Origin: Candidatus Latescibacterota bacterium
GTDB taxonomy: Bacteria; Latescibacterota; UBA2968; GCA-2709665
DNA: 37,574 nucleotides
Direction: 5' to 3'
NCBI GenBank assembly: GCA_012270675.1
Contig: JAAXHW010000010.1
Coordinates: 1-37,574 of the forward strand
Part shown: positions 6,298-15,450 of the stretch, in pieces
How positions within the stretch are numbered: position 1 is the first letter of the stretch
How the letters are laid out: each line of letters starts with the position of its first letter
Notes under the pieces: model-generated
What the model was told of the DNA's origin: nothing
What the model saw: the letters and a program-made list of their open reading frames with translations, nothing else
Databases searched by the model: none
Program-made: the position numbers and the translations under genes

Positions 6298-7134
6298 TCA
6301 GGACCAGACGAAGATTTCACCGTCGTCTGCGGAGTAGCCGATGAATACGGCCAGGACGATCCTGGGGTCGGGGCCCTGCAGGGGTGGGACCTCGTGGATG
6401 CAGCGGGTGTTGAAGAAGTAGAGGTCGCCCGGTTGCAGGTCCACACGGCAGCGGGCGATGCTGTGTTCGGCCGCGTAGTCGTGGAAGGTGTCTCCGTCGA
6501 TGTGGGGCTGGACGTCCTGAGTCCAGAGGCACCGATGCAGGATGGCCTGGGTGCTTTTACCCCTGTGGGAGGCGTTCTGGAAACAGAGGACGCCGGCAAA
6601 CTGGTGCTCGAAACGGGAGACGGCGTAGTTGAAGCGCTTCTCGCGCAGGGTGACGTGGTCGATGTGGGGCCTGTAGGTGTGGCTGGTATAATGGATGCGG
6701 AAGATGGCCGGACCGTAGAGGCGGCCGTCAGGCTCGCGGGCGACTTTGACGGTTTTGCCGACGGCGAGTTCGGAGAGGGCCTCGTAAATGGTGTCTACCG
6801 GGTTGTCGAACCCGTCAAAGAGGTGACGGAAGAGGGCGTGGGTATGCCCGGCGTGCTTCAGGAAGGCCTCTTTGTCGCTGCCCCGGTTGCCCAGACTGGT
6901 GCCGATGTCGATGCGCGTGCGGGTATTTTCAGAAGTGGTGTCTGCCGGATCGTGCATGAAGCCCCGGTGGATGAACCTCCGGATGAGGCCGGCACAGTGG
7001 GTCGGGGGGTAAACCCGGCGCAGGAGGATGGCCGGGATGCGGGCCTCGGAGAGGGCAAGGAGCGGGTGCTTGTACGCGGCAAGGACGGTTTTCAGGTCCG
7101 GTCCTGCCGGGGTCCAGTTTTCAGAGGATGGCAC
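6298..7134 (-). CDS. 2-oxoglutarate/Fe(II)-dependent oxygenase-like protein
   Basis: HID (HxD), later CIHEV (distal His) and DPRIVLAVFIGY (Arg) arrangement; overlaps the creatininase gene by 43 bp. Confidence 0.7.
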   Translation of the reverse strand: MPSSENWTPAGPDLKTVLAAYKHPLLALSEARIPAILLRRVYPPTHCAGLIRRFIHRGFMHDPADTTSENTRTRIDIGTSLGNRGSDKEAFLKHAGHTHALFRHLFDGFDNPVDTIYEALSELAVGKTVKVAREPDGRLYGPAIFRIHYTSHTYRPHIDHVTLREKRFNYAVSRFEHQFAGVLCFQNASHRGKSTQAILHRCLWTQDVQPHIDGDTFHDYAAEHSIARCRVDLQPGDLYFFNTRCIHEVPPLQGPDPRIVLAVFIGYSADDGEIFVWS

Positions 7135-7898
7135 CGGGCTTCTCCTGTTGTGGGCGGCAGGGGCTCGCCGGTGAGCATGTGGATGCGCCGGCCTTCCTGG
7201 AAGGTGGCCGGGGGGGCATCCACCTCTTCTCCGGCGATCATTTTGCGGAGGATTTCGGTCACGCCGGCAATGGCGGGCTCGATGAGTTTCTCGCCCTTCT
7301 GCCGGGTGCCCTGGGCGGCTGCGGGGTTGTCGATGTCCATCTGGTGCACCCGTTCGGGGGCGAGGACGAGCATGGTGGAGGTTTCGTACTCATCCGCGTG
7401 GCCGGGCAGGCGTTTGTTTTCCAGGGTTGCTGCGACCAGGTCAGGATCGTACACGTCCCAGTAGGACTGGAAGCGCAGGTTGACGCCCAGCCTGTCCCGG
7501 TACTCGTCGATGCGGCGCATGAGGGGTCTGACGTTGCCGCCGTGGCCGTTGAGGATGAGGATGTTTTCAAGGCCGGCCCGCTGGAGGGAGTGGCAGACGT
7601 CGAAGACGTATTCACAGAAGATTTCCGAGCGCACGGTGAGGGTGCCAATATGTTCCATCCAGTGTTCCGAGTAGCCGATGCCGATGGGGGTGGCGACCAC
7701 GACCTGGGGATGGAGACGTCTGGCGGCCTGTTCGGCCATGTGGGTGACGTGCAGGGTATCGTGGACCATTTCGAGGTGTTCGTTGTGCTGCTCGGTGGCG
7801 CCAGTCGGCACGACCGCGGCTTTGATGGCACCGGCCTGCATGCGGTTTCGAAATTCCTTGCGGGTCAGGTCGCCGATGAACACGCGTGCGTCTGACAT
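7092..7898 (-). CDS. Creatininase-family protein
   Basis: VPTGATEQHNEHLEMVHDTL, GYSEHWMEHIGT, ILNGHGGN motifs characteristic of creatininase/creatinine amidohydrolase. Confidence 0.88.
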   Translation of the reverse strand: MSDARVFIGDLTRKEFRNRMQAGAIKAAVVPTGATEQHNEHLEMVHDTLHVTHMAEQAARRLHPQVVVATPIGIGYSEHWMEHIGTLTVRSEIFCEYVFDVCHSLQRAGLENILILNGHGGNVRPLMRRIDEYRDRLGVNLRFQSYWDVYDPDLVAATLENKRLPGHADEYETSTMLVLAPERVHQMDIDNPAAAQGTRQKGEKLIEPAIAGVTEILRKMIAGEEVDAPPATFQEGRRIHMLTGEPLPPTTGEARCHPLKTGPRQDRT

Positions 7899-8064: not shown

Positions 8065-9381
8065 TCAGGTCTTGTGGGCTTCACCTGCCTGGATGAGGGC
8101 GCGTTTCATGGCGATGGGGCCGACCATCTGGTTGATGGCGATGACGGCCACCACCACGGTTACAAACGCATCCCCCCAGGTGGGAAAGCGCCGGACGACC
8201 TCCAAGGCCAGGCCGAGGCTGATGCCCGCCTGGGTCAGGTAGGCCATACCCGCGATGCGGTTGAGACGCGGAGGATCGCCGCCGAGATGCCCGCCGGTAT
8301 AGGCCCCCAAAAAGATGGCGGCGGCCCTCACGGCGGTCAGCAGAAGGGCGACGGTCCAGGTCTGCTGCAGGGCGTTCAGGTTCAGTCCGGCGCCGGCCAA
8401 GGTGAAGAAGAGCACGTAGACCGGCAGGCTGACGGCGTTGACCGCGCCGATGAACCGTGCGCCCTGGCGGGAGTAGTTCTGCACGGTGAACCCTGCGGTT
8501 ACACAGATCAGCAGCGGTTCCAGCCGGAGGCCCAGGCCGTGGGCCTCCTCCATGTATTCCGCAAGTCCGGAGGAGATGCTGGTGACCAGCAGCGCGGTGC
8601 CCAGCAGGAGAACGGGGAGGTTCACCCGGACGCGGTCAATGTAGAAGGCGAGTCCCCAGCCCAGAATCAGTCCCACGCCGATTCCCACCAGGATCTCCGC
8701 TCCCAGGGTTGCGACAAACGCGAGGTCGAGGGAGGCTGCCGGCGACATAGCGACCTCACAGAAAGAGACCGCCGAGGCGAAGAGGACGATGACGAACACG
8801 TCCACGGCCACCGTGACCCCCAGTGCGGTCTCAGTGAAGGGGCCGTGCGCCCTGGTCTCGCTGATGACGGCGATGGCGCTGGAGGGGGACCGGGCCACGG
8901 CGAGCACGCCAAAGAGCATGCCCACGGCGAGCATCTGAAGTCCGGAAAATGGGGCGGTGAACGGGAGCAGCGATCGGCTGAGCATGATGAAGAGGGTGAC
9001 GATTGCAAAGACGACGACCGTGGAAGATGCGATCACCAGGAGGATGACCCGCATCCGGTCCCGCAGTTCGGCGACTCTCAGTTCTCCCCCTGCGGCCAGG
9101 GCGATGAAGGTGACGGCCAGTTCGTTCAGGAAGCCGAGGTTTTCGACGGTATCGACCGTGAGGAAGCCGAGGAGGTAGGGTCCCATCAGGAGGCCCACGC
9201 AGAGGTAGCCGGTGATCCTGGGCAGGCTGAGGGAGAAGAGGAGGTGGCCGGCGATGTGCCCCGAGAGCAGGAGCAGGCCCACCAGCAGGGTGGTGTGCGC
9301 CCCGGGTGCGTCTCCCGGGGGGATGCTGCTGGCCCATCCGATCAGCAGGACCAGGACCAGGAATACACCGATCCCTCTCAC
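8065..9381 (-). CDS. Cation:proton antiporter (Kef/CPA2-like) B
   Basis: Polytopic protein with ARSPSSAIAVISE and ALGVTVAVDVFVIVLFA segments; GTG start overlaps the previous gene stop (GTGA). Confidence 0.8.
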   Translation of the reverse strand: MRGIGVFLVLVLLIGWASSIPPGDAPGAHTTLLVGLLLLSGHIAGHLLFSLSLPRITGYLCVGLLMGPYLLGFLTVDTVENLGFLNELAVTFIALAAGGELRVAELRDRMRVILLVIASSTVVVFAIVTLFIMLSRSLLPFTAPFSGLQMLAVGMLFGVLAVARSPSSAIAVISETRAHGPFTETALGVTVAVDVFVIVLFASAVSFCEVAMSPAASLDLAFVATLGAEILVGIGVGLILGWGLAFYIDRVRVNLPVLLLGTALLVTSISSGLAEYMEEAHGLGLRLEPLLICVTAGFTVQNYSRQGARFIGAVNAVSLPVYVLFFTLAGAGLNLNALQQTWTVALLLTAVRAAAIFLGAYTGGHLGGDPPRLNRIAGMAYLTQAGISLGLALEVVRRFPTWGDAFVTVVVAVIAINQMVGPIAMKRALIQAGEAHKT

Positions 9382-10565
9382 GGCGTTTTCTCCAGAAGGC
9401 GTCTCACCAGCGTGGGGCCGATCAGTTCGCTGACCAGCATTCCAAGCAACACAACGGAGATGACCGCATCGGTGAGTTCGGATCGGTGGATCTGGTGGAG
9501 GTTGACCACAATGGCCACGGCCATGCCCCCGTGCGAGAGGAGCCCCAGTCCGATCTGCTTCAAGGGGCCGGGTTGGGGCAGGAAGAGCTGGGCCGAGAGG
9601 TAGCCGCCCAGGATTTTGCCGAAGGTGCGGGCAATGAGGTAGGCGGGAAGGAGGGCCGCGATCCAGATTGACCCGATCTCCCAGCCGGCCCCCACCAGGA
9701 TGAGGAAGAGGATGTAGATTGACCGCTCTCCCCGCAGGAGGACATTCTGGATGCCTGCCTTGGCGCGACCACCTGCCAGGTTGGCCACGACCATTCCGGC
9801 GATGAGGTTGACCAGCAGGGGCGAGAGGTTCAGGTAGAGCGCCAGGCCTCCCCCGAAGACGACGGCACCGATGACCACCAGAAGCATCTCCTCACCCTCC
9901 AGGCGGTAGGCCGTAAGCGCGACGGTAAGGAGTCCGACGGTCAGGCCAAGCCCCAGGGATGCGCCGACCCAGAGGTAGGCGGGTGTTTCGCCGTTTTGGA
10001 TGGCCACACAGGAGACGATGCCGAAGGTGATGACGCCGACCAGGCCGTCCAGGTTTGAGACGTTTTGGAGCAGCCGCATGAGAGGACGGCTGGCCGAAGG
10101 CGCGTTCCGGGCGGCCAGGGCCAGGCCGCTCTGAGCGGTGTCCGAGGCCGCGGCGGCGAGGGTGATGGCCCCGATGAGGACAATACCTGTTTCGTAGGCG
10201 AAGAGTTTCTGGAAGAGGAAGTAGAAGGGAACGACGACGACAGCCATTGTGACGATTGCCTGGAGGAGGGAAATTCTGAAGACCTGTTTCGGGATGTGGG
10301 TCAGCCGCCGGAACTCCCACTGGATTCCGAAGAGCATCCCGATCCAGGAAAGCCCCAGGCCCATAAAGGGATAAAGCCCCTGAAGGGTGGGTCTGTCGAG
10401 GAGGTTCAGGGCGGTGCCGCCGAGCAGAAGGCCGACCAGGACGTATTCGGTGCCGGTGAGAAAGAGGTTCTCGATTCCCAGCGGGAGCCGGAGGCGGACG
10501 AAGCTGAGGCGGGATCCCAGAAAGGCGATGGCGGTCACCAGAACGGCTACGATAACCAGTTTCAT
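9378..10565 (-). CDS. Cation:proton antiporter (Kef/CPA-like) A
   Basis: Polytopic protein with GAITLAAAASDTAQSGLALAARNAPSASRPLMRLLQNVSNLDGLVGVITFG; ATGA overlap with the upstream gene. Confidence 0.8.
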   Translation of the reverse strand: MKLVIVAVLVTAIAFLGSRLSFVRLRLPLGIENLFLTGTEYVLVGLLLGGTALNLLDRPTLQGLYPFMGLGLSWIGMLFGIQWEFRRLTHIPKQVFRISLLQAIVTMAVVVVPFYFLFQKLFAYETGIVLIGAITLAAAASDTAQSGLALAARNAPSASRPLMRLLQNVSNLDGLVGVITFGIVSCVAIQNGETPAYLWVGASLGLGLTVGLLTVALTAYRLEGEEMLLVVIGAVVFGGGLALYLNLSPLLVNLIAGMVVANLAGGRAKAGIQNVLLRGERSIYILFLILVGAGWEIGSIWIAALLPAYLIARTFGKILGGYLSAQLFLPQPGPLKQIGLGLLSHGGMAVAIVVNLHQIHRSELTDAVISVVLLGMLVSELIGPTLVRRLLEKTP

Positions 10566-10909
10566 AGACGTTCCCCGGGGGTCGGCCCCAGGTAAAAATC
10601 GACCGGTATGAGAAAGAGTTTGCCGATTTCCGGTTTGGTAAAGTCGATGTCTATTTCTTTAAAGTGCAGGACCAGGGGGTCGAGGAGACCCCGGTCCGGA
10701 AGGACCGCAACAATCGTTTTGGTGTGGCCTGTCCCGCCGGTTGCCTGCCAGAGCCCCGCGAAGATGGGCACGTCTTCGGAGAGCACCCGCTCCATGCTCG
10801 TTCCGTCCAGCACGGCCGCTCCGGTGATTTCCATTTCCACCAGGGCGGAGAGCACCTCATCCAGGAGGTCTTCGCGGTAGAGAACAATCAGAAGAAGGTA
10901 CATGTTCAT
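10562..10909 (-). CDS. Small PII-like signalling protein (ferredoxin-like fold)
   Basis: MNMYLLLIVLYREDLLDEVLSALVEMEITGAAVLDG resembles the PII beta1-alpha1-beta2 unit; 115 aa; ATGA overlaps at both ends. Confidence 0.6.
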   Translation of the reverse strand: MNMYLLLIVLYREDLLDEVLSALVEMEITGAAVLDGTSMERVLSEDVPIFAGLWQATGGTGHTKTIVAVLPDRGLLDPLVLHFKEIDIDFTKPEIGKLFLIPVDFYLGPTPGERL

Positions 10910-11364
10910 ATGGGTTCCTGGTCACGGATGAGGGCGATGATTTCATCGGGGGAGGAGGCGTCCAGGACCTTTTGCGCCATCTCCGGTCTGTGAAAGATCC
11001 GCGCCGTGCGGCTGAGCACGCTCATGTAGGCGGGCATGGCGGCTTCCGATGAGAGGATGAGAAAGATCAGATGCACCGGCTGTCCGTCGAGGCTCTGGAA
11101 GTCGAGGCCGGGCCGCGAAATGCCCAGTGCAACCACCACCCCGTCAATGTCGTCCGACCGGGCGTGTGGAATGGCCACCCCCCTGTCCACTCCGCTGGTC
11201 TTGATCGCTTCCTGGTCGAGGATGCGCCGGAAGAGGACGTCGGGGTCGGAGAGCGTCATCGACCGGTTCATCAGGGCAATCATCTCTTTGATGACCTCGT
11301 TCCTTACTGTGCTCGACAGATTGAGTTCGATCCGATCGGGAGCCAGAGCGTTAGACAGTTTCAT
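10906..11364 (-). CDS. PTS fructose/nitrogen-type EIIA domain protein
   Basis: KTSGVDRGVAIPHARSDDIDGVVVALGIS contains the phospho-His motif (GVAIPHAR) of PtsN/EIIA-Fru proteins; start at ATG 11364 (or 11379). Confidence 0.88.
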   Translation of the reverse strand: MKLSNALAPDRIELNLSSTVRNEVIKEMIALMNRSMTLSDPDVLFRRILDQEAIKTSGVDRGVAIPHARSDDIDGVVVALGISRPGLDFQSLDGQPVHLIFLILSSEAAMPAYMSVLSRTARIFHRPEMAQKVLDASSPDEIIALIRDQEPI

Positions 11365-11530
11365 GGACCTGTTCCCCATGGTTGTGTCAGGCGTGGTGTG
11401 CTGCGGCAGTATTGAGGTCGGTGAAATATACAACGTATTCGGGATACAGCCCTAAGAAAAAATCAGGGTCCACCAAAGGCCCTGGACGGTGGGGGCCGGA
11501 TCCCAAAAGCGTATCGCACCGTTTTAATGG

Positions 11531-11711: not shown

Positions 11712-12197
11712 ATGTTTAGCAGGAATATAGAGAAGGCCCTGAACGAACAGCTCAACAACGAGTTCTTCTCGTGGTATAACTATCTGTCGATGTCTTCCTT
11801 TTTCAGAGCGCTTAGCCTGAACGGCTTTGCTCGCTGGATGAAGGCCCAGTCACGGCGCGAGATGGTACACGCCATGAAAATCTATGAGTTTCTACCCGAG
11901 CGCGGCGGCAGGGCGATGCTGACCCAGGTCGCACAGCCGTCCAACCAGTGGGACTCACCGCTGGCTGCGGTGCAGGAGGCGTATCGACACGAACAGGAAG
12001 CCAGCGGAATGATCAACGACCTGGTTGATCTGGCCCTGAGCGAACACGCCCACGCTACGAATGCGTTTTTGCAGTGGTTTGTCACCGAACAGGTGGAGGA
12101 AGAAGCACGGCTTCGAGCGGTTGTGGAAAAGCTCAAACTCGTGGGAGAAGACCCCTACGGGCTGTTCCTGATTGACCGGGATATGGGAAAAACATAA
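11712..12197 (+). CDS. Ferritin (non-heme)
   Basis: IEKALNEQLNNEFFSWYNYLSMSSFF..., WFVTEQVEEEA typical of bacterial ferritin (FtnA type); AGGAGAGGG RBS. Confidence 0.93.
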   Translation: MFSRNIEKALNEQLNNEFFSWYNYLSMSSFFRALSLNGFARWMKAQSRREMVHAMKIYEFLPERGGRAMLTQVAQPSNQWDSPLAAVQEAYRHEQEASGMINDLVDLALSEHAHATNAFLQWFVTEQVEEEARLRAVVEKLKLVGEDPYGLFLIDRDMGKT

Positions 12198-12210: not shown

Positions 12211-15200
12211 CTATTCAAGCTTTAGAATTGTCTCTTTTGAACGCAGAACGCGGGGGTTGATACGGAAACGGAGCCAGCCGTCTTCGCTTTCTGCTTCCAG
12301 AATACCCATCTGCTTTCCCTCCCGTTCCAGAACGGCCTTTTTGAGCGATGTTCGAATTTTGATCTCCGCGGAGGTGGTGGTTCGGATACGGAAGCAGTGC
12401 TTTGTGTCCTCTTCCATCCAGAAGACCGAAGGAATGCGGAACCGGACGCCGCTGTTGAAGGGAAAATGGTCCACTCCGATGCAACGGCCTCTTACGGATT
12501 TGACCGCATAGGCCGTCCAGCAGCCCTGGTCCGGATCTTCAACCTCAACAAAGCTGCCCCCAAGCGCAGCGCTATCGGGAATCGCAACGGCGGCCTGGAA
12601 ACCCGTCGTGTCGTAAGAAGCGATCTCACCTTCGATCACCGGACGCTTCAATACAACCGAGACATCGGGCGACGCGAAACGGGCTGCTTCTGCCAGAAAG
12701 AGGGCGGAGCGCCCTCCTTTTTCCCGGGTGTAGACCGCCGCCCGCCCGGTAAGCGCAAACCCCTCGGCTGTCAGGTCCGACCCATCCGGCGTCTGAAGCA
12801 CGATATCGGTACCGCCTTGGCGGGTAATCTGAAGCGCTGTGGGGCCGTCTGCGCCCTCAGGCAGGCGAATGGACCGGACGCCGGTGATATCGGACGCTTC
12901 CCGGTAGTGTTCGATCAGGGTCACAAAACCATTCCCGCTTCCCCGTTCGCGGTTTCGTGCAAAAAGATAATCCTTTCGAAGTCCGATTTCCGCGTGGTCC
13001 CGCTGCCCGGGGCCGTCTCCGAGGATAACCTCCTCGGCAGGCGAGAGGAACCGGACGCGCATGGTCATCCCCTCGTCCGTCCATGCGGTGGACCAGGGAC
13101 CTCTGGGAGCGCCGACGCGGAGATTTTCGATGTCGCGGCCGATCACCCCTTTCCGACTTTTAAGAGGGATGGGCCTGCTGTTTGCAGCCACGGGCCGGGA
13201 GGTGATCTCACCCTCGCCGTGAATCGCATAATCGTGGATGCTGCCGCCCTTCACACGGAAGCAATCCACGAGATAGGCCGGTCCTTTTCCCCGGTGAACC
13301 ATAAAGCAGGAGCGGCGGTACACATCGGCTTCATCGTAAGCCCTGGTATCGGCTTCGATAAATTTAACCCGGGGCGAAGCGGCAATCAGACGCACGCTGC
13401 CGGGAGGGCGTCGGCCGCGCGGCAGCTGCTCCTTCCCGTCAACAACGACCAGATTGTGCTTCAAGGTGCTTTTGATGCTGGCATTCAGGGGATGGTCGCC
13501 GATATAGCCCAGGTCGGACAGCACCTCAACTCCCTCGGCGAACATGGCAATATTGAGCGCGTCGGGATGGTCGTGCCCTTCGGGCTTGTAGAAATTCATC
13601 AGGAAAGTGGCCGTGCCGGCCAGATCCTCCTGGAACATACGCTCGTACCCGGTATTGAAAATGGCCAGCAGCCAGCCGGGGAAGAAGAGATCCCGCACCG
13701 GGGGAGGATCAACCGGTTCGAGGTCGGCGGAACGGTTGAACAGGGCGAAGTCGTCTCCGCTGTCCAGCCGGACAAAGGGGGCGAACTCCTTGCCCAGGCG
13801 CACAAGACCGATGTTGTGCAGCCAGGCCGGTCCGGGCCATCCCGGTCCGTCTTCATGGGCATCGGCGGTGTGGGGCACCCGACCGTCGGGCAGCGTCATA
13901 TGGATCCGGGCCCGAAGCACTGTGTGATAGGGCCCGTCGGAATCGTAGAGATCCAGATCGTCGAAGCGGTCTTTGCGGCGGTACGACGGAGGATCGCTAT
14001 AGCCGCGGGCCACTTCCGGCAAATCGTGGACGTTGGATGTGCCGTATGCGTAATAGCCCGAGCCTTCAGCCGTAGAGCCGTCGAACTTGAAGAACCCCTT
14101 CACATAAGGTTTGAACCCCTCCACGCCCCGGTGAACGTACGCCGGCACCCCCAGAAACCGGCCCAGGGCCACTTCGCCCACCCGGCAGCCCGCGACCTTG
14201 TTGTTGATCCCCTCCCAGTGGGTAAAGGTAAACAGTCCCTCGACGATCAGGTTCCCAACTACGGTCTCCCGCTCCCCTTCGGTCAGAAAAAGACGGCCCT
14301 CTCGATCCGTTGCGTCCCAGATCAGATCCAGCGCCTCGGCGAGGTTGACGAGATGAGAGGCTTCGGCCTGCACGCCGCCGGAAGACAGCCGCCCGCAGCC
14401 CCAGAAGGTCTGGATAAGCTTGCCGCTTGCCATAGCGGACCGGGCGTCCTGGTCCGGACAGGCGTTGACCTCATATTTGCCGATAGTTTCGTCCCGGGCC
14501 ATAAGTTCGCAGGCATAGAGGGGATCGCAGTCCATGTAGGTATTCCAGTAGTCGTGAAAAAGATAAGTGGGATAGACCTCTGCAAACCGCTTCAGAACCG
14601 CAGCGGCGGTGCGGGCGTAGCGATCTTCCCCGGTCAGTCGGTAGACCACGGCCAGCGTGCGGGCGACCCCTGTCATGTGGTGCGCCTTGTTCTGGCGGAT
14701 GGCGCCTTGGTAGGACGAATGCACCTTGCGTCCGGCCCACATAAACGCGTTTCGGCCCGTTGAAAACCGCCGATCGCCCACTTCGCCGGGCCGGACATAA
14801 TAGGGAAGTACCTGTCCGGAGCGAGGGAGTTCCAGCCGACCGTTTTCTACAAAGCGCTGATCGGTCATGGCAGCGCCGCAGTGGAAGCAGACGAGCTTCT
14901 CAGGATCCCGATAATCCCACTTCATTCTGTACGTATTGTCGGCCTCGCAGACGGGACAGAACGTGCCGTACACATGGAGGGGCGTCAGGTCGGGCACCAT
15001 GGTATCGACCCAGGCTGCAGAACGGTCGGTATAGTGGCCGGCCAGGGCCAGCATGCGGTCGTAGTGTTGTCTGGCCCAGTCGTGTTTCCGGATGTTGGCC
15101 CGCGCAACGTCAAGGTTCTCCTCCCGGATACTCAGGCAGGGGTGTTCAACCCGTTTCGCACTTCGATGGTATTTCACTTTGAGCGCTTCCAACCGCTCCC

Positions 15201-15285
15201 TGCATTCGCGTTCGCCCGCGCTGTTCCAGCGCGGTGGGGCAACAAGTCCGACCTTTTGATTCCGGGTTCGCTTTGAACCAGTCAT
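12211..15285 (-). CDS. Heparinase II/III-like polysaccharide lyase family protein
   Basis: About 1024 aa from ATG 15285; YKPEGHDHPDALNIAMFAEGVEVLSDLGY (GHxHxD-type), FDGSTAEGSGYYAYG, WEGINNKVAG; N-terminal CPVC...CFHC potential zinc ribbon. Confidence 0.75.
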   Translation of the reverse strand: MTGSKRTRNQKVGLVAPPRWNSAGERECRERLEALKVKYHRSAKRVEHPCLSIREENLDVARANIRKHDWARQHYDRMLALAGHYTDRSAAWVDTMVPDLTPLHVYGTFCPVCEADNTYRMKWDYRDPEKLVCFHCGAAMTDQRFVENGRLELPRSGQVLPYYVRPGEVGDRRFSTGRNAFMWAGRKVHSSYQGAIRQNKAHHMTGVARTLAVVYRLTGEDRYARTAAAVLKRFAEVYPTYLFHDYWNTYMDCDPLYACELMARDETIGKYEVNACPDQDARSAMASGKLIQTFWGCGRLSSGGVQAEASHLVNLAEALDLIWDATDREGRLFLTEGERETVVGNLIVEGLFTFTHWEGINNKVAGCRVGEVALGRFLGVPAYVHRGVEGFKPYVKGFFKFDGSTAEGSGYYAYGTSNVHDLPEVARGYSDPPSYRRKDRFDDLDLYDSDGPYHTVLRARIHMTLPDGRVPHTADAHEDGPGWPGPAWLHNIGLVRLGKEFAPFVRLDSGDDFALFNRSADLEPVDPPPVRDLFFPGWLLAIFNTGYERMFQEDLAGTATFLMNFYKPEGHDHPDALNIAMFAEGVEVLSDLGYIGDHPLNASIKSTLKHNLVVVDGKEQLPRGRRPPGSVRLIAASPRVKFIEADTRAYDEADVYRRSCFMVHRGKGPAYLVDCFRVKGGSIHDYAIHGEGEITSRPVAANSRPIPLKSRKGVIGRDIENLRVGAPRGPWSTAWTDEGMTMRVRFLSPAEEVILGDGPGQRDHAEIGLRKDYLFARNRERGSGNGFVTLIEHYREASDITGVRSIRLPEGADGPTALQITRQGGTDIVLQTPDGSDLTAEGFALTGRAAVYTREKGGRSALFLAEAARFASPDVSVVLKRPVIEGEIASYDTTGFQAAVAIPDSAALGGSFVEVEDPDQGCWTAYAVKSVRGRCIGVDHFPFNSGVRFRIPSVFWMEEDTKHCFRIRTTTSAEIKIRTSLKKAVLEREGKQMGILEAESEDGWLRFRINPRVLRSKETILKLE

Positions 15286-15450
15286 TTTCACATCCTCTCG
15301 AATACAGGCTAAAATTGTAACCAGAAACCGGGCGTCCGCGGCCCGTTGGGCGTGTTCCGGGTTGGATATGATGGGGCAGGATGCGTACTGTGTCAAGCAG
15401 AATATTGCCGGTTGCGAGCTGTGGGTGCGGAGGCTGTTTTGCGGAGATGG

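Follow-up and report, generated by a model that had tools for sequence, protein, structure and literature searches.

Gene organization of the operon

The minus strand of the window (the whole stretch of 37,574 nucleotides that was analyzed, from a Candidatus Latescibacterota bacterium) carries a four-gene operon encoding a PTS EIIA protein, a PII-like protein, and two antiporters, denoted A and B, with a 4-bp overlap at all three junctions. What could such a combination do, and why are there two different antiporters? The four open reading frames and three overlaps listed in the preliminary description are all present in the sequence, as is the phospho-histidine motif GVAIPHAR in EIIA (His67, codon 11166-11164). 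The EIIA start given there, ATG 11379, is possible, but homologs start at the in-frame ATG 11364. The features of the operon are:

10906..11364, minus strand: EIIA (PTS, PtsN/fructose type), 152 aa; PF00359, E 7e-24
10562..10909, minus strand: PII-like protein, 115 aa; PII fold by AlphaFold2 and Foldseek
9378..10565, minus strand: antiporter-fold subunit A, 395 aa; AlphaFold2 fold and profile matches
8065..9381, minus strand: antiporter subunit B, 438 aa, GTG start; PF00999, E 8e-17
10906..10909, minus strand: EIIA/PII-like overlap ATGA, seen in the sequence, not conserved in five relatives
10562..10565, minus strand: PII-like/A overlap ATGA, seen in the sequence, conserved in five relatives
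9378..9381, minus strand: A/B overlap GTGA, seen in the sequence, ATGA in five relatives

The five closest relatives share the gene order, with a gap of 20-356 nt between the EIIA and PII-like genes. Thus, the overlap at every junction holds for this genome and is specific to it, and conservation of the gene order extends well past the close relatives. The closest named relatives are MAGs, some labelled Gemmatimonadota and others Candidatus Latescibacterota. Promoter and terminator scans gave results near chance level.

A divergent family of PII-like proteins

Searches of Pfam and NCBIfam with the single 115-aa sequence return nothing useful, phmmer against the PDB yields chance matches only, a profile search with the family produces weak PII matches among others, and five of 25 family members match PF00543, all weakly (best 2.3e-7), so that the argument is carried by the fold search. 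The AlphaFold2 model (single-chain, like all structure models used here; pLDDT 88, pTM 0.79), built from an alignment of the 25 family members, has the topology strand-helix-strand-strand-helix-strand that defines the PII fold (beta-alpha-beta-beta-alpha-beta), and the best 50 Foldseek matches in the PDB are all PII, GlnK or PII-like proteins (E from 5e-5). Hence the original assignment of this protein as PII-like holds at the level of fold and, weakly, at the level of sequence. Proteins of the PII superfamily are homotrimers whose ligand sits in the cleft between subunits. None of the 82 family members matches either of the classical PII signatures (PS00496, PS00638). Thus, the 115-aa protein belongs to a divergent PII-like family, a branch separate from classical GlnB/GlnK, and the identity of the GlnB ligand is not transferable to it. 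The segment equivalent to the T-loop is predicted to be helical, with a conserved motif [VIL]P[ILM][FL] in 63 of the 82 members. An ordinary GlnB-type protein is encoded elsewhere in the same genome. Searching plasmids for this protein identified one record, unannotated.

Two CPA-fold proteins with a divided ion-site motif

Antiporter B is a member of the CPA superfamily by virtue of its PF00999 match, and its profile is similar to NapA (8.6e-9). Antiporter A alone has no match in Pfam and is assigned by fold and profile only: a Foldseek search with its AlphaFold2 model (pLDDT 86, pTM 0.85) detects NapA (1.7e-9) and PaNhaP (2e-8), with KefC further down, and the A profile matches PaNhaP (2e-8). 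The similarity of the model to NapA and NhaP shows A to be an intact protein of the CPA fold. No RCK domain is identified by Pfam in either protein. Accordingly, of the label "Kef/CPA-type" initially attached to these antiporters, CPA stands and Kef does not apply to A, for which NapA and NhaP are the nearest solved folds; neither protein carries RCK. Membership in the Kef-type CPA2 group was considered and rejected given the lack of the RCK domain and the motifs DG in A and VD in B instead of QD.

Comparison of the ion sites relied on the eight-position CPA motif (PMC6181914), in a register set by aligning profiles with NapA (DD motif, K305), PaNhaP and MjNhaP1. In the window, the motif alignment identifies the following residues:

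Codons 10049-10044 and 9617-9615, minus strand: D173/G174 and K317 of A
Codons 8805-8800, 8316-8314 and 8520-8518, minus strand: V193/D194, I356 and E288 of B

At position 7, where B has the aspartate D194, A has G174 instead. Among the antiporters compared, Asp6 and Lys8 occur together in 15 of 17 A proteins (each in 15, and in the same 15 proteins), in 31 of 33 other antiporters (Asp6 in all 33, Lys8 in 31) and in none of the 19 B proteins, which lack both residues without exception; Asp7 is found in 6/17 A, 19/19 B and 33/33 other antiporters. Thus, A and B carry complementary motif sets, with the CPA ion-site motif split between two proteins. Because Asp6 and Lys8 are present in the same 15 A proteins and both are lost in B, the two residues of this salt-bridge pair are retained or lost together in nearly all cases. 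Asp6, Asp7 and Lys8 within one subunit, the arrangement of electrogenic CPA2 exchangers (NhaA/NapA), are found in neither antiporter of the window; all three are present in most single-antiporter cassettes. The six A proteins with Asp7 come from close (L028, L030, L031, L032) as well as distant (L104, L109) relatives, which implies that A is not transport-dead everywhere. Additionally, by column count, 16 of the 19 B proteins have a B-specific acidic residue (E288 in the window) where the others have serine. The most degenerate A proteins, those of L070 and L073, have arginine at the Asp6 position and lack both Asp7 and Lys8; the partner B keeps Asp7.

In a tree of 76 antiporter sequences, obtained by a quick search without bootstrap and containing some long branches, 17 of the 18 first antiporters of pairs form the A clade (SH-aLRT 98), and 17 of the 18 second antiporters form the B clade together with L114 and L115 (SH-aLRT 99), the short A partner of which is not in the tree. 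The exception is L135, a separate local pair. Window-type A and B clades co-occur in about nine families, and A and B distances are correlated across 11 lineages (r 0.98), as expected for co-inheritance, with a partial contribution of species history. The f44 loci (L091, L092, L130) and L133/L135 also encode two antiporters each, both with the full DD motif; the f44 and L135 pairs branch off in other parts of the tree and have an origin independent of the window-type pairs. The co-inherited clades and the complementary ion-site residues lend indirect support to the earlier suggestion of a paired, possibly heterodimeric antiporter.

EIIA and the phosphorelay

The EIIA protein scores well above the gathering cut-off of PF00359 (84.9 vs 27 bits), and its best PDB match is the nitrogen-regulatory IIA protein 2a0j (E 1e-14); it falls short of the curated cut-off of the PtsN equivalog TIGR01419 (73.3 vs 138.7 bits). 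The phospho-acceptor histidine is kept in 64 of 66 aligned EIIA proteins of the family. Of the two remaining rows, one is a truncated domain, and the other, L105, has asparagine and comes from a genome (G282) that lacks EI. As stated in the preliminary description, there is no EI or HPr gene at the operon; both are encoded, adjacent to each other, on contig C1 of the same genome, which also has three EIIA paralogs and no match for EIIC. Given this gene set, the PTS of this bacterium looks regulatory only. The further EIIA paralogs, L142 and L143 (G000:C24 and G000:C303), have no antiporter or PII-like gene detected nearby.

EI is present in 275 of the 386 sampled genomes, so that its presence alone says little; the informative part is its coupling to EIIA at the locus. 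The EIIA gene is absent from the PII-like locus in six of the nine PII-like-bearing genomes without EI, compared to 9 of the 57 with EI (Fisher p 0.003, phylogeny ignored; the count excludes two genomes in which the gene lies at the end of a contig and scores two with partial EI as EI-positive). The three genomes that keep EIIA without EI are G282, with the asparagine substitution in L105, and G047 and G054, which are fragmented MAGs whose congeners have EI.

A widespread cassette associated with cation/proton exchangers

The profile of the PII-like family identifies members in 69 of 386 sampled genomes and in 53 of 312 genera. Among 77 PII-like genes examined for neighbors on the same strand within 2.5 kb, 56 adjoin an EIIA gene, 54 a CPA antiporter gene, and 45 have both nearby; at some loci, the PII-like gene is next to the antiporter although EIIA is absent. 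In 12 of the 77, the EIIA and PII-like domains are fused in one open frame; the tree of PII-like proteins is based on too few columns to show how these fusions originated. Most cassettes contain a single antiporter. In L072, L074 and L129, the cassette runs directly into genes for the Mrp Na+/H+ antiporter, and in L127, it is located among Mrp-like genes (MnhE, MrpF, MnhG, MnhB and Proton_antipo_M domains are found near the cassette). CPA and Mrp are unrelated but share the function, suggesting that the cassette mostly tracks cation/proton exchange rather than one protein family. This association spans dozens of bacterial families.

Neither EIIA nor a CPA antiporter is found near 12 of the 77 genes, one of which lies beside Mrp genes; evidently, the PII-like gene has other roles too. 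The possibility that the lone PII-like loci are further antiporter loci was rejected, their neighbors being MlaE, IMPDH-like and other genes. In L080 and L082, the lone PII-like gene is directly upstream of an MlaE permease gene, compatible with a different role of the family. In L087 and L090, EIIA and PII-like genes occur beside a gene for a CLC chloride channel/exchanger (PF00654 and CBS domains in L087; L090 assigned by the same layout). In L093 and L097, two EIIA genes flank the locus, in the order EIIA-antiporter-PII-like-EIIA.

Proposed mechanism and comparison with known systems

On balance, these observations are best compatible with the operon being a dual-input regulator, combining PTS phosphorylation with PII-type control, of a heteromeric CPA cation/proton exchanger, an interpretation that we consider probable. 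A and B, both of the CPA fold, would be obligate partners in a heteromer (most likely a heterodimer). In it, B would contribute the transport site through the essential ion-binding aspartate Asp7 (D194), without the Asp6-Lys8 pair; A of this genome, with Asp6 and Lys8 kept, would serve as partner and regulatory platform, and, lacking Asp7, probably does not perform canonical ion exchange. Electrogenicity requires acidic residues at positions 6 and 7 and a basic residue at position 8 (PMC6181914); by this rule, B, without Asp6 and Lys8, is predicted to be electroneutral. The two soluble proteins may stand in for the cytoplasmic RCK domain, which Kef and YcgO have and A and B lack, binding to the exchanger and acting on it from the cytoplasmic side: EIIA would report the PEP/PTS phosphorylation state, with the phosphate coming from the EI and HPr of the genome, and the PII-like protein would report a small ligand. 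The 12 fusions suggest that the two possibly act as one complex. The dual-input ion-flux module proposed at the outset is thus supported, given the PII fold, the conserved gene order and the failure to find the operon published as a characterized transporter. The genes, folds, linkage, co-occurrence, conserved phospho-site and split motif are observed; the heteromer, the physical interactions and the regulation with its sign we infer.

The precedent is the E. coli system in which unphosphorylated PtsN binds and inhibits YcgO, a CPA1 K+/H+ antiporter (PMC11808508). There, as proposed here, a CPA-fold antiporter is regulated according to the phosphorylation state of an EIIA from the same family. 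By analogy with PtsN/YcgO, unphosphorylated EIIA would inhibit the exchanger of the window. However, that system as described includes no PII-like protein or second antiporter, and PtsN binds the C-terminal cytoplasmic region of YcgO, which is absent from A and B. Kef proteins are homodimers characterized by the QD motif and an RCK domain at the C-terminus (PMC11150392, PMC11808508); KefC resembles the proposed system as a CPA exchanger under cytoplasmic regulatory parts, whereas A and B show no QD motif, no RCK domain and no sign of a homodimer. NapA and NhaP match in fold and profile but, in contrast, the operon encodes two different subunits with a split ion-site motif. In PII/GlnK-AmtB and in SbtA with the PII-like SbtB, a small PII-fold protein is co-operonic with a transporter and gates it. 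The operon shares this arrangement and differs in the PII family, which lacks the classical signatures, in having an ion exchanger as the neighbor, and in the pairing or fusion with EIIA. The parts are of known kinds; the novelty lies in their combination and in the split exchanger. A literature search, mostly without subscription papers and preprints and hence weak evidence, found no paper on EIIA, a PII-like protein and antiporters together and no description of a heteromeric CPA exchanger.

Alternative interpretations

An alternative is that A and B are independent homodimeric antiporters that differ in ion or pH range, are expressed together and share EIIA and the PII-like protein as regulators. 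To our knowledge, the structurally known CPA exchangers are homodimers, most cassettes manage with one antiporter, and the f44 and L133/L135 loci combine two full-DD antiporters. These pairs arose separately, however, and independent homodimers are hard to reconcile with the co-occurrence of window-type A and B clades in about nine families, with the 4-bp A/B overlap in the window and five relatives, and with the complementary ion-site losses; we consider this explanation rather unlikely. The association of the cassette with exchangers across dozens of families, switching between the unrelated CPA and Mrp superfamilies, similarly makes it improbable that EIIA and the PII-like protein are a general PTS/metabolite signaling pair with other targets (e.g., transcription), merely co-expressed with the antiporter, even though 12 PII-like loci lack both partners and MlaE, ABC-2 and CLC genes are among the other neighbors.

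The PII-like protein could also be a trimeric structural subunit or adaptor that binds no ligand, with EIIA as the only source of the signal. The lack of the classical signatures in all 82 members and the conserved motif in the predicted helical T-loop segment would fit such a role, but nucleotide binding through altered sites is known for other PII-like proteins, the fusion to a phospho-switch domain suggests signaling, and the PII-like gene stays beside the antiporter in loci without EIIA, which leaves a ligand-free adaptor unlikely. The dual-input regulator thus remains the preferred interpretation. We put at about an even chance the broader proposition that an undescribed, widespread cassette of EIIA and a new PII-like family, sometimes fused, serves the unrelated CPA and Mrp exchangers and, in one lineage, controls a CPA exchanger that is an obligate heteromer, with the ion-site motif shared out over its two subunits. 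If correct, many poorly studied bacteria would couple ion and pH homeostasis directly to the central carbon and energy state (PEP through EI-HPr) and to a second metabolite signal, and the EIIA-antiporter control of E. coli would extend to a common cassette. The pair would also provide a natural test of the CPA mechanism, with Asp6-Lys8 and Asp7, normally in one chain, parted into two proteins such that each role can be studied separately.

Genes adjacent to the operon

The gene at 6301-7134 (minus strand) matches PF22814, the WelO5-type Fe/2-oxoglutarate halogenases (E 2e-18); an RPHIDH stretch in the protein points to a metal site of the HxD type, as in a hydroxylase and not a halogenase. 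It is adjoined by a creatininase-family gene (7095-7898). A ferritin-like gene (11712-12194, plus strand; PF00210, E 1e-40) is divergent from the operon, and beyond it a heparinase II/III-like protein of 1061 aa is encoded (12214-15396, minus strand).
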